NCBI RefSeq assembly: GCF_029278605.1
Contig: NZ_CP119572.1
Location: 3,472,001-3,536,000, forward strand
Reading direction: 5' to 3'
From: Cupriavidus sp. WKF15
GTDB taxonomy: Bacteria; Pseudomonadota; Gammaproteobacteria; Burkholderiales; Burkholderiaceae
DNA length: 64,000 nt
The position numbers and the translations under genes are program-made. This document shows, in pieces, positions 2 through 50,231 of this stretch. Below the pieces are notes generated by a model. It saw only the letters and a list, made by a program, of their open reading frames with translations. It searched no databases and was not told the origin of the DNA. Every line of letters starts with the position of its first letter. The stretch's first letter is position 1.

Positions 2-847
2 GTGGCCACCGATGCCCAGGTCATGTTCATTGTTCTGAACACCGCAGGCCTGACTCTGATCCCGACCTCGGTCATCGCCATGCGGCAAGCCATCGCGATC
101 AAGCAAGGACTGATCGGGTTCAATGCGGCGGATATCTTCTTGCCGACACTGCTGGCAACCGGCGGTTCGTTCCTGGCGGGTCTGCTGGCGGTGGCCTGGA
201 TGCAGCGGCTGAACCTGTTCCGGCCGGCGGTGCTGACCGCCTTTGCCATAGCGACACTAGGCTTGGGCGGTCTCCTGATATGGCTTCGCCACGCGCCTCC
301 GGATCATGTCAGCCAGGTCACCGCCCTGGCAGGCAGCGGCTTCATCCTTTCACTGATCACCATTTTCCTGGTGTGCGGAGCCATACGCCGCATCAACGTC
401 TATGAGGCCTTTATCGACGGCGCCAAGGAGGGCTTCGGCGTCGCCGTGCAGATCATTCCTTACCTCGTCGCGATCCTTGTGGCAATCGGGCTATTCCGCG
501 CTACCGGCTGCATGGACATTCTGATGCACGGGCTGACCGTCGGCTTCGCCTGGCTTGGCCTGAATACGGAGTTCGTGCCCGCGCTTCCCGTCGGGCTGAT
601 GAAGATCCTGTCGGGCGCCGGCGCCCGCGGGCTGATGGTGGATGTGATGACCACCTACGGCGTGGATTCCTTCCAAGGTCGGCTTGCCGCGATCATCCAG
701 GGGTCGACCGAGACCACGTTCTATGTCCTGGCCGTCTATTTCGGCAGCGTCAATGTGCGCAACACGCGCCATGCACTCGCTTGCGCGCTCGTTGCCGATG
801 TCGCCGGACTGTTCTGCGCTGTCGGGGCCGCTTATCTTTTTCGATAG
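2..847 (+). CDS. Fused SpmA/SpmB-type membrane protein, C-terminal part (cut by window edge)
   Basis: Integral membrane protein of the nucleoside-recognition (Gate) family related to Bacillus spore maturation proteins SpmA and SpmB. In proteobacteria the two are often one chain of about 400 residues, so these 281 residues are probably the end of SpmA plus all of the SpmB half. An SpmA-like segment (VLNTAGLTLIPTS) lies near residue 12, and an SpmB-like segment with LSGAGARG, DSFQGRLA and QGSTETTFYVLAVYFGS runs from about residue 200 to 250. The GTG at position 2 is only the first possible start inside the window; the true start is almost certainly upstream. The transport substrate of this family in non-sporulating bacteria is not established. 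Confidence 0.8.
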   Translation: MATDAQVMFIVLNTAGLTLIPTSVIAMRQAIAIKQGLIGFNAADIFLPTLLATGGSFLAGLLAVAWMQRLNLFRPAVLTAFAIATLGLGGLLIWLRHAPPDHVSQVTALAGSGFILSLITIFLVCGAIRRINVYEAFIDGAKEGFGVAVQIIPYLVAILVAIGLFRATGCMDILMHGLTVGFAWLGLNTEFVPALPVGLMKILSGAGARGLMVDVMTTYGVDSFQGRLAAIIQGSTETTFYVLAVYFGSVNVRNTRHALACALVADVAGLFCAVGAAYLFR

Positions 848-907: not shown

Positions 908-923
908 TTGTATCGACACAACA
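908..923. promoter_or_regulatory. Possible operator, copy 1
   Basis: The 16-mer TTGTATCGACACAACA is an imperfect inverted repeat. It matches the element at 1203-1218 (TTGTTGCGATGCAACA) at 12 of 16 positions, pattern TTGTnnCGAnnCAACA. Two related sites flanking the small RNA could bind one regulator. No regulator gene is adjacent, so this is inference from sequence symmetry alone. Confidence 0.35.
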
Positions 924-960
924 ATAATGTGTCAAAAGCAAAACATTGCTGAGCGGGCAC

Positions 961-989
961 TTGGTGCGACGCAGCAAGGCGTGTATAGT
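961..989 (+). promoter_or_regulatory. Sigma-70-type promoter of the small RNA
   Basis: TTGGTG at 961-966 and TATAGT at 984-989 are separated by 17 bp. The -10 hexamer matches consensus at five of six positions and the -35 at only three. The predicted start falls near 996, just before the hairpin-rich segment that ends in a terminator. Confidence 0.6.
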
Positions 990-995
990 GAAGTC

Positions 996-1056
996 TGTCT
1001 CCTCCACCACCTCGGTGGATTCCAACCCGCGCAGAACACTGCGCGGGTTTTTTTTG
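996..1056 (+). ncRNA. Small RNA of about 60 nt with anti-Shine-Dalgarno loop; resembles the betaproteobacterial toxic small RNA family
   Basis: Seen: a promoter ending at 989, then CUCCUCC at 999-1005, then a hairpin with arms CCACC (1004-1008) and GGTGG (1014-1018) and loop ACCTC (1009-1013), then an intrinsic terminator. The loop and the CUCCUCC tract both match the anti-Shine-Dalgarno sequence at the 3' end of 16S rRNA (CACCUCC). Known, from memory: a betaproteobacterial family called toxic small RNA has this two-hairpin layout with a conserved anti-SD loop and is toxic when cloned in E. coli. Family membership and any role in titrating ribosome binding sites are inference. Exact 5' end is a guess from the -10 box. 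Confidence 0.6.
1024..1056 (+). terminator. Strong intrinsic terminator of the small RNA
   Basis: An 11-bp stem, AACCCGCGCAG (1024-1034) with CTGCGCGGGTT (1039-1049), closes an AACA loop. It runs straight into eight T residues (1048-1055), so the 3' U tract overlaps the stem end. Confidence 0.9.
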
Positions 1057-1202: not shown

Positions 1203-1234
1203 TTGTTGCGATGCAACAAGCGCTGCCGTAGAGT
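1203..1234 (+). promoter_or_regulatory. Promoter with overlapping palindrome upstream of the FUSC gene
   Basis: TTGCGA at 1206-1211 and TAGAGT at 1229-1234, 17 bp apart, make a reasonable sigma-70 promoter with start near 1241, 16 bp before the ATG. The inverted repeat TTGTTGC (1203-1209) / GCAACAA (1213-1219) covers the -35 box, which fits repressor binding. Confidence 0.5.
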
Positions 1235-1256: not shown

Positions 1257-3350
1257 ATGCCCGCCCTACTGTCCTTTCTCCGCTACTGGCCTGACGCTGC
1301 GCTGATCCGGCGCGGCATGGTTTATGCCGGGTCATTTCTCTCCCTCGCCAGCATGGCATGGCTGAGCGGGCAAGAGAGCTATTTCTGGGCGGCGACCGCC
1401 TCCATCTGGACATGCCTGGCCGACCGTGAAGGCACGGCGGCCGAACGCCTTGCCAGCCTTGGCGCTGTCGGCCTCGGCGGCAGTCTGGCCAGTGCGCTGG
1501 GCGCTGCCGTGGCCTCCAGTCCTGTTGCGGCCGTGCCCTTGGTGTTGGTCGCGGGAATAGCTGCCGGCCTGGCGGAAACGCGCGGGCCGGCCGCGGCGCT
1601 CGCGGCCAAGCTGCTGTACGTGGTCCTGATCGCCGCCTGCCTCCAGCCTGCGACCGGACCGGATGTGCTGGCCCATCTGGCGGATTCCGCTCTCGGCTAC
1701 CTGAAGGGCGGCGTGTTTGCCTGTGCCGTCTGCCTCGCGTTGATTCCCTCGCGCCGCGACATGCGCCCGCGACCTGAGACGGAGGCCGTTTACGCCGCCC
1801 TGCAGCGCTTCGCCACGGCACTCGCCGCCGACGGTGCCGCGGCCGAACTGACCGCCTGCAAGCAGGACATCCGCAACCGCATCGAGGCAGCGCGGCGCGC
1901 CATCCATGCCAGGCGCAGCCCGCGGGACGCCCATGCGCTGCTGCACTACGCCTATGTCATTGGCATTGCCGACGCCTTGTTCGGCCTGCTGATCGTGGCA
2001 GCCGAGCTGCGTGAACGCGCGGGCTCCGCACATCGCCTGCCGCTGCGGCACGTGGCGCGCTGCATGGCCGACGCACATCAGCAAGTCAGCCAGGCCATGG
2101 CCCGGCACGCCGCGGACCTGCCTTCCCTGAGCGCGGCGCTGCGGCACGAGCTGCGGCGGCTGATATCGCCAATGCCCAACGCCAGCGCGCCGCCGCCGTA
2201 CCAGGCCGCACTGGGTGCGCTGGCGCGGCACCCGGAATTCGAGCCCTGGCGTGCCGGATTCTCCTGGCCGCGCCGCGGCCTGTGGCACGTCGTGGATCGC
2301 GTGCGTGGCGCGCTCGGCGAACATGCCGCGCGCGACGCGCTGGCTGGCCGCCATGCCATCCGGCTGGCGCTCGGCGGCTGCCTGAGCCTCTTGCCGGCGC
2401 AATGGTGGCACGTGGATCACGGCTACTGGGTAGCGGTCACGGTCATCATGGTGCTGAGCCCGCAGCTCCAGACGACGCGCCAGATCTCGCTCAAGCGCTT
2501 CGCGGGGTCGCTGGCGGGGGCGCTGCTGGCATGCGCGGTCGGGCTGTTGCACCCCGCGCCGACGATAGCGCTGGGCATCAGCGCCGTATTCCTCGCCGGT
2601 GCCTACGCCAACCGGCTGGCCGCCCAACCCGCCGGCTTTGCGTTCTGCCTGACACCGGCGGTGATTCTGTTCTCCTGGGTCGGCGCTCCGGCCGTCGACA
2701 GCAGCCACTTTGCCGCATTGCGCGGCATTGACACGGCGCTAGGCTGCCTGATTGCGCTGGCAAGCTATTACATACTGGCGCCGCGCATGGAGCGTTCGCG
2801 CCTGCTGCGCCACGCCCTCGAGGCAGTTGCCGTCAATGCCGTCTACCTGCGGGCTGCCTTCGCAGCGGCCCGCACGGCAGCCCCAGCCAGGGCGCGGCTC
2901 GAGGCGCTGCGGATTGCGGCCGGCCGGGCCTCGACACGCGCGGAACGTACCCTGGCAGAACATGGCGAGGGGCTCACGCCCGATGTGGCACAGGCGTACG
3001 CCTGTCTGCACGGCACCGCGCGCCGCCTGGCGGCACTGGCCGGCGTGGTACGGGCGGGCGCAGAGTCCGGTTCGTTCGACGCCTTGCCGCGTTCCCCCAT
3101 GCAGTCAGCCCTGGCCGCGCTCGAAACCCGCCTTGCCGAGATTGCAATACGGCCAGGACATGAGGCCACGGGCCTTCCCGGGACGCAAACGCTTGCGGTC
3201 GAACTTGTGCCGCAATTGCCCTTCGAGTGCTTCCTGGCCGAGCAGGCGGACTATGCCAATGCCCATATCGCCGCGGCCCACGCCGCCGCGGCCGCGTTGC
3301 GCGAACCTGAGCCGGTCGCCGCGCCGCCCGGCCTCGCACACCGCGCGTGA
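1257..3350 (+). CDS. FUSC-family (aromatic acid/fusaric acid type) inner-membrane efflux protein
   Basis: Predicted 697-residue membrane protein of the FUSC/YccS family, whose members such as AaeB and FusC export aromatic acids and related toxic compounds, usually with a membrane-fusion partner. The typical layout is visible: a hydrophobic block at about residues 20-165, a soluble helical region, then a second hydrophobic block at about 355-500 (LALGGCLSLLPAQWW followed by YWVAVTVIMVLSPQ), then a helical C-terminus. The ATG at 1257 is chosen because the longer frame from 927 would run through a small-RNA terminator, and 697 residues fits the family. No membrane-fusion or outer-membrane partner is adjacent, so the substrate is unknown. 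Confidence 0.8.
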   Translation: MPALLSFLRYWPDAALIRRGMVYAGSFLSLASMAWLSGQESYFWAATASIWTCLADREGTAAERLASLGAVGLGGSLASALGAAVASSPVAAVPLVLVAGIAAGLAETRGPAAALAAKLLYVVLIAACLQPATGPDVLAHLADSALGYLKGGVFACAVCLALIPSRRDMRPRPETEAVYAALQRFATALAADGAAAELTACKQDIRNRIEAARRAIHARRSPRDAHALLHYAYVIGIADALFGLLIVAAELRERAGSAHRLPLRHVARCMADAHQQVSQAMARHAADLPSLSAALRHELRRLISPMPNASAPPPYQAALGALARHPEFEPWRAGFSWPRRGLWHVVDRVRGALGEHAARDALAGRHAIRLALGGCLSLLPAQWWHVDHGYWVAVTVIMVLSPQLQTTRQISLKRFAGSLAGALLACAVGLLHPAPTIALGISAVFLAGAYANRLAAQPAGFAFCLTPAVILFSWVGAPAVDSSHFAALRGIDTALGCLIALASYYILAPRMERSRLLRHALEAVAVNAVYLRAAFAAARTAAPARARLEALRIAAGRASTRAERTLAEHGEGLTPDVAQAYACLHGTARRLAALAGVVRAGAESGSFDALPRSPMQSALAALETRLAEIAIRPGHEATGLPGTQTLAVELVPQLPFECFLAEQADYANAHIAAAHAAAAALREPEPVAAPPGLAHRA

Positions 3351-50155: not shown

Positions 50156-50231
50156 TGGTGGACCGAAGGAGGATCGAACTCCCGACCTCTGCATTGCGAA
50201 CGCAGCGCTCTCCCAGCTGAGCTATCGGCCC
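50156..50231 (-). tRNA. tRNA-Ala, anticodon CGC
   Basis: 76 nt including an encoded CCA. The acceptor stem GGGCCGA pairs with TCGGTCC and contains the G3-U70 pair that defines alanine identity. The anticodon stem-loop is CTGCG-TTCGCAA-TGCAG with anticodon CGC, reading GCG. The D-arm (GCTC...GAGC) and T-arm (TTCGATC loop) are standard. Confidence 0.97.

Follow-up and report, generated by a model that had tools for sequence, protein, structure and literature searches.

Which regulator governs a small RNA (sRNA) encoded in the gap between two protein genes of Cupriavidus sp. WKF15, and on which process would that RNA act? The genome of this bacterium comprises 7.38 Mb in 3 contigs, and the window, that is, the whole stretch of 64,000 nucleotides that was analysed, is located within contig 1. 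Positions 961-1056 of the window are intergenic: they lie between the gene for a membrane protein with a Gate domain, which is the upstream neighbour of the sRNA in most Cupriavidus loci, and the gene for a transporter with a FUSC_2 domain, whose score against the FUSC profile PF04632 falls slightly under the cut-off of that profile (Table 1). The reading favoured here, which can be given a probability of roughly two in three, is that the locus encodes a 61-nt member of the RF02278 family whose promoter, judged from its sequence, would lie under a PhaR operator spanning -35 to -19, and that the RNA would act as a PHB-responsive blocker of ribosome-binding sites.

Table 1. Features of the sRNA locus and its neighbours, in window coordinates.
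Feature	Position	Strand	Basis
Gate (nucleoside recognition) domain membrane protein gene, cut by the left window edge	2..847	+	PF07670, 48.1 bits, cut-off 29.6
Weak third palindrome of the repeat family	908..924		PhaR motif, 3 mismatches; doubtful function
Operator-like palindrome TTGGTGCGACGCAGCAA, sRNA positions -35 to -19	961..977		PhaR motif YTKNTGCRNYGCANMAR, 0 mismatches (motif: PMC12849132)
Weak -35 hexamer TTGGTG, within the palindrome	961..966	+	Sequence; missed by consensus scan
-10 hexamer TATAGT	984..989	+	Sequence; conserved in the genus
Double-hairpin sRNA, RF02278 member, 61 nt	996..1056	+	Start inferred from the -10 hexamer and the Rfam boundary
Unpaired 5' tail UGUCUCC	996..1002	+	Complementary to GGAGACA-type Shine-Dalgarno sequences
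First hairpin UCCACC-ACCUC-GGUGGA, ACCUC loop	1003..1019	+	Fold, genus alignment
Terminator: 11-bp stem (1024-1049), 4-nt loop, U tract	1024..1055	+	Terminator scan and fold
Second operator-like palindrome TTGTTGCGATGCAACAA, upstream of the FUSC gene	1203..1219		PhaR motif, 0 mismatches
-10-like TAGAGT of the FUSC gene, directly 3' of the second palindrome	1229..1234	+	Consensus resemblance only
FUSC_2-domain (aromatic-acid-exporter-like) transporter gene	about 1257..3350	+	PF13515, 83.6 bits, cut-off 25.6; start codon is the analyst's choice

The identity of the RNA is directly supported. Nucleotides 996-1056 score 53.8 bits against the Rfam covariance model RF02278 (gathering score 50) and cover the complete model from position 1 to 64, which bears out the assignment to the betaproteobacterial toxic sRNA family made in an earlier, sequence-only reading of this DNA. 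The RNA folds into two hairpins, the second of which is the terminator followed by Us, with an energy of -30.5 kcal/mol (z = -7.1; none of 200 shuffled sequences was equally stable), and 7 of the 10 consensus pairs show two-sided changes, i.e. covariation, among 26 members picked for diversity. The layout that the same reading had described, a promoter with a 17-bp spacer, a hairpin with an ACCUC loop and a terminator, was recovered by sequence inspection, folding and terminator scan. Its CUCCUCC tract fared less evenly: only the first part is unpaired, and the last UCC opens the first stem. Likewise, the conserved anti-Shine-Dalgarno element that had been placed in the loop consists mainly of the unpaired 5' tail UGUCUCC, not of the ACCUC loop alone. 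The terminator with its U tract would fit a trans-acting sRNA dependent on Hfq. In the window, the sole further Rfam match above gathering score is a tRNA gene at 50159-50231 on the minus strand.

Five RF02278 matches are present in this genome at E < 1e-3, two of them above the cut-off, and every one of the 60 Cupriavidus genomes searched harbours at least one match (above the cut-off in 58). Conservation was followed in an alignment of 65 Cupriavidus loci, 30 and 35 of which came from separate searches; weaker matches, being paralogues or covering only the stretch 1198-1237, were left out. Nucleotides 1-28 of the sRNA, comprising the tail, the first stem and the ACCUC loop, are invariant save for one column at 0.98, and the flanks average 0.43 and 0.45. 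The CU-rich 5' part UGUCUCCUCCACC is found in 65/65 loci, and the loop, whose conservation in close relatives had been proposed as a test of the earlier reading, is kept in this set. Two single-species genomes, G405 and G453, carry nine and eight RF02278 copies, compared to the usual one to four in an order-wide sample.

The founding paper on the toxicity of RF02278-type RNAs is said to be that of Kimelman in 2012. The Rfam name of the family, 'Betaproteobacteria toxic sRNA', and the reported inhibition of E. coli by cloned relatives (PMC4603805, PMC7011215) could suggest a toxin-like element that belongs to a toxin-antitoxin system or serves plasmid maintenance. This is highly improbable: 58 of the 60 Cupriavidus genomes searched match the locus in their chromosomal DNA, with conserved neighbours, several RF02278 copies coexist in a genome, inspection of 840-1260 revealed no partner gene, and the Bordetella relative S17 is reported not to be similarly toxic (PMC11722255).

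The promoter consists of TTGGTG (961-966), a 17-nt spacer and TATAGT (984-989), with the inferred start at 996. By manual count the -35 hexamer agrees with TTGACA at 3/6 positions, and a consensus scan of 840-1260 with a threshold of 4/6 per hexamer reported no promoter. This -35 hexamer is embedded in a palindrome that coincides with YTKNTGCRNYGCANMAR, the palindromic motif derived for Ralstonia eutropha PhaR from published binding sites in a 2025 paper (PMC12849132). Perfect copies of the motif occur in the window only at 961-977 and 1203-1219, and none was found in 20 Markov sequences of the same size; with 3 mismatches the motif is found at 85 places against a Markov mean of 94, which is the chance level. 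The earlier notion of related flanking palindromes is upheld, as the three at 908-924, 961-977 and 1203-1219 are members of a single repeat family. The accompanying suggestion that they regulate the sRNA gains ground for the two at 961 and 1203, which match the PhaR operator, and loses it for the one at 908, whose 3 mismatches are at chance level and whose position is not conserved in the genus alignment.

Position and conservation of the operator are, like the match itself, direct observations. Across the 65 loci conservation jumps at 960, and the mean column conservation of the operator is 0.95 versus 0.43 upstream of it. The motif is present with 0 mismatches at exactly -35 in 64 of the 65 loci (in L083, the remaining one, it has 4), a figure that is not selection-free because the query by which the Cupriavidus loci were retrieved contained the operator stretch; a search of family genomes for a pattern and for its reversed form, described below, provides a second line beside this count. 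The symmetry of the site helps in weighing the possibility that the sRNA is constitutive or under general stress control, with the conserved -35 region being promoter only and the accumulation in growth arrest stemming from RNA stability. Such a view can draw on the remark that higher levels may stem from protection as well as from induction (Sass 2017, PMC5688073) and on the absence of the operator from most RF02278 copies across the order. It is unlikely nonetheless, as the right arm of the palindrome (-26 to -19), which lies in the spacer and is required neither by the -35 box nor by any other promoter element, is conserved, and the two-fold symmetry is maintained while the central base varies. 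In five loci (L045, L075, L076, L078 and L082) a wider-spaced palindrome, GTTGC-N6-GCAAC, is found ~60-100 nt before the sRNA.

The case for PhaR as the cognate protein, and thus for the favoured reading of the palindrome, comes from the company that the motif keeps. PhaR is encoded in this genome (PF07879 and TIGR01848 both above cut-off), downstream of a phaB-like gene. The phaP1 gene of the same genome, a phasin gene by profile, is preceded by the palindrome TTGTTGCGGCGCACCAA with 0 mismatches, and a copy with 1 mismatch is located ~50 nt before the start codon of a short-chain PHA depolymerase gene (L090). In relatives the palindrome precedes the genes of L113, L117 and L124, which are phaP1 by eye, a phasin gene (L103) and the gene for a protein slightly below the phasin cut-off (L104). 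A stricter form of the pattern is present in 56/60 Cupriavidus genomes versus 3/60 for its reversed form, although some of the places among those listed fall within coding sequence or near genes without a relation to PHB. In this genome the palindrome shows no genome-wide enrichment at <=3 mismatches (47 versus 51).

A second site, with <=2 mismatches and 150-300 nt after the sRNA start, accompanies the FUSC gene: it occurs in 40 of the 41 loci with FUSC versus 7 of the 24 without (Fisher p = 2.9e-9, which is overstated because the genomes are related), and with 0 mismatches in 20/41 and 4/24, respectively. The adjacent FUSC gene, having its own copy of the operator, is probably switched together with the sRNA. 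Local regulators often share a site with a transporter gene in this way, and the motif, besides being degenerate, is driven in part by G+C content, with its 3-mismatch places at chance level; the palindrome might then be the operator of another protein, for instance a MarR- or TetR-type regulator of the FUSC exporter, and merely resemble a PhaR site. The occurrence of the same palindrome at phaP1, at other phasin genes and at the PHA depolymerase gene renders this improbable, as do the 24 of 65 loci that lack FUSC in a set in which 64 keep the site at the sRNA, and the lack of a regulator gene adjoining the palindrome in the stretches examined.

Several further observations concern the surroundings of such palindromes. 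On the 3' side of phaP1 there is a weak RF02278 paralogue (L129:3366-3438, identical to L007; C1:2021865-2021937; 31.6 bits), which lies ~140 nt beyond the phaP1 stop codon and carries GGUCUCC. This heptamer is exactly complementary to GGAGACC, the Shine-Dalgarno sequence of phaP1, with a predicted duplex of -18.1 kcal/mol. It is possible that this paralogue acts as a feedback RNA derived from the 3' end of phaP1. A PhaR-like palindrome is located ~200 nt upstream of a glutamate/aspartate ABC transporter binding-protein gene (L086, C1:503565-503581) and another near the gene of a protein that looks similar by eye (L099). At L088 (C1:2705975-2705991) a near-consensus palindrome directly follows a TTGACA-like box, and an apparently UbiD-like reading frame lies ~320 nt away.

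How far the arrangement extends beyond the genus was examined with the pattern 'PhaR core-N14-22-TGTCTCC'. Of 398 family genomes, 193 contain it, spread over 11/25 genera, and 1 contains the reversed pattern. Not all matches correspond to the sRNA, an example being the second match in this genome, on contig 3. Named genomes contain at least 119 core-pattern stretches, mostly from Paraburkholderia, Caballeronia and Cupriavidus, with few, among the matches listed, from Massilia, Undibacterium, Pararobbsia, Pandoraea, 'Burkholderia sp.' and MAGs. By a rule-based call, double-hairpin-like sequence follows in 114 of the 119 listed stretches; L173, L175 and L209 look alike by eye. Two Rhodobacterales stretches (L180 and L181), devoid of a double hairpin, were dismissed as chance. 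PhaR itself was detected in 113 of the 130 family genomes scanned: by hand count, in 58/59 with the core pattern and in 55/71 without it, the sole genome that has the pattern and lacks PhaR being an 83%-complete assembly. Because PhaR is so common, its presence says little and is a weak predictor of the operator.

In 10 genomes of genus g11, tentatively Burkholderia, 30 of 48 RF02278 matches were fetched. Twenty of these 30 copies have a TGCRNYGC palindrome from -38, with a TATA-like -10 hexamer and 1-3 mismatches to the full motif; this palindrome may be the common upstream motif of the 2017 paper (PMC5688073). The remaining 10 represent a third type: a TATAAT lies upstream, and the 5' palindrome, located at -25 and with 2 mismatches, is read here as an RNA hairpin. 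Across the order, 90 of 144 RF02278 matches were examined, chosen mostly by score and blind to the operator. The core palindrome lies upstream of 14/90, against 8/90 and 3/90 in control stretches, and at -33 or -34 in 8 of the 14; for the full motif with <=2 mismatches the figures are 12/90 against 7/90 and 3/90. Control of the whole RF02278 family by PhaR was rejected on these counts; the operator is a feature of certain lineages and certain copies. In this genome, none of the other four RF02278 copies is preceded, within 600 nt, by a site with <=2 mismatches. In many copies of the order that have no operator, a conserved inverted repeat resembling ACACGCAATGTGTG directly precedes the 5' end (examples are L329, L330, L337, L344, L353, L356, L358 and L360), which is perhaps a transcribed hairpin.

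With respect to targets, the tail UGUCUCC is complementary to GGAGACA. The pattern AGGAGACA-N3-9-ATG is present 139 times in the genome, with at least one site counted twice, and 0 times when reversed; this count shows that the Shine-Dalgarno type is common, not that the genes concerned are targets. Against the start regions of the window, represented by 45 crude gene calls whose starts were chosen partly by Shine-Dalgarno strength, the tail pairs better than against flanks (p = 3e-5), yet 16 of 50 shuffled tails equal or beat it.

From these elements a circuit can be drawn, in which we infer the binding of PhaR, the repression, the response to PHB and the targets. In R. eutropha, PhaR is reported to repress phaP1 from sites near -35 and -10, to leave the DNA for PHB granules and to activate phaP3 from sites upstream of the promoter (PMC12849132). 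In the absence of PHB, PhaR would occupy the sRNA operator and RNA polymerase would be blocked; as carbon is stored as PHB, PhaR would move to the granules and the promoter would be freed, as for phaP1. The sRNA would then accumulate, its UGUCUCC tail and ACCUC loop would pair with Shine-Dalgarno regions, and translation of transport and catabolism mRNAs would be lowered. De-repression upon PHB accumulation is expected since the operator spans -35 to -19 and PhaR represses phaP1; the sign of the regulation is uncertain because PhaR can also activate, as at phaP3. The broadest version is a storage-coupled translational brake: PhaR titrated by PHB would release at least one double-hairpin sRNA, ribosome-binding sites of the AGGAGACA type would be covered by it, and stored carbon would in this way directly slow the production of uptake and catabolic proteins in much of the Burkholderiaceae, with a co-regulated exporter in addition in Cupriavidus. 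This version is more tentative and falls just short of an even chance.

If this brake operates, alpha- and betaproteobacteria would have separately wired different sRNAs to PhaR. A PhaR operator on a conserved sRNA would give part of the RF02278 family a regulator and would add, in the genus to which the model producer belongs, an RNA arm to PHB control that ties protein production to the carbon store of the cell. PhaR control would also agree with the higher levels of Burkholderia members in glucose medium and upon growth arrest, an agreement that proves nothing. The sRNA itself is of a known kind; the new parts are the PhaR-type operator and the exporter that shares it. For Cupriavidus necator, the part that riboregulation plays in PHB synthesis 'remains undeciphered' according to a review of 2021 (PMC8401924). 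No link of the RF02278 family to PhaR or PHB was found in the literature among the matches listed, which mostly exclude subscription journals, so that an earlier report is possible; text searches found no PhaR or PHB in PMC5688073, no 'small RNA' in PMC12849132 and no PHB in PMC11722255, as far as the accessible text of each extends. A point against the proposal is that B. cenocepacia sRNAs were reported undetected in a C. metallidurans transcriptome (PMC7563307).

The role of the family is not as poorly known as the sequence-only reading had supposed, and papers on Burkholderia and Bordetella relatives exist. In B. cenocepacia four RF02278-type RNAs with mapped starts have been described (PMC4603805), four are also known in Herbaspirillum (PMC7011215), and the Burkholderia members were named double-hairpin RNAs of 57-92 nt (PMC5688073). 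Overexpression of one of them, ncS27, slows growth and silencing raises it (PMC5688073; summarized in PMC10987360); under the name bdhR1 it is reported to rise in starvation, glucose medium and stationary phase (PMC11722255). The B. cenocepacia RNAs ncS03, ncS05, ncS27 (bdhR1) and ncS62 belong to the same covariance-model family as the Cupriavidus sRNA. An upstream motif common to three of the four is left unexplained and their regulator is not named in the accessible text (PMC5688073), whereas the motif upstream of the Cupriavidus sRNA could be matched to PhaR.

S17 of Bordetella pertussis has a near-identical 5' part that pairs with ribosome-binding sites, and represses many genes: it depends on Hfq, and in its absence 92 genes rise, of which 70 show complementarity at the ribosome-binding site; one target was confirmed by lacZ (PMC11722255). 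In contrast to the Cupriavidus RNA, S17 derives from a 190-nt primary transcript that RNase E converts to 67 nt, is transcribed from a sigma-A promoter and has a repressor that is the subject of speculation only in the accessible part of that preprint.

The closest regulatory parallel is MmgR of Sinorhizobium meliloti, likewise an sRNA, which PhaR (AniA) represses through a dyad between -35 and -10 of its promoter (PMC12542648, PMC8401924); the logic of the circuit therefore has a precedent in another class. MmgR differs in being an alphaproteobacterial RNA of 77 nt from the alpha-r8 family, set apart here by name and not by sequence, and in acting as a negative regulator of PHB and phasins. 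The phaP1 promoter of Ralstonia eutropha (Cupriavidus necator) offers the nearest likeness in operator design, with palindromes for PhaR that adjoin -35 and surround the start (PMC12849132): there, two footprinted sites control a protein gene, whereas at the sRNA promoter one predicted site lies over the -35 hexamer.
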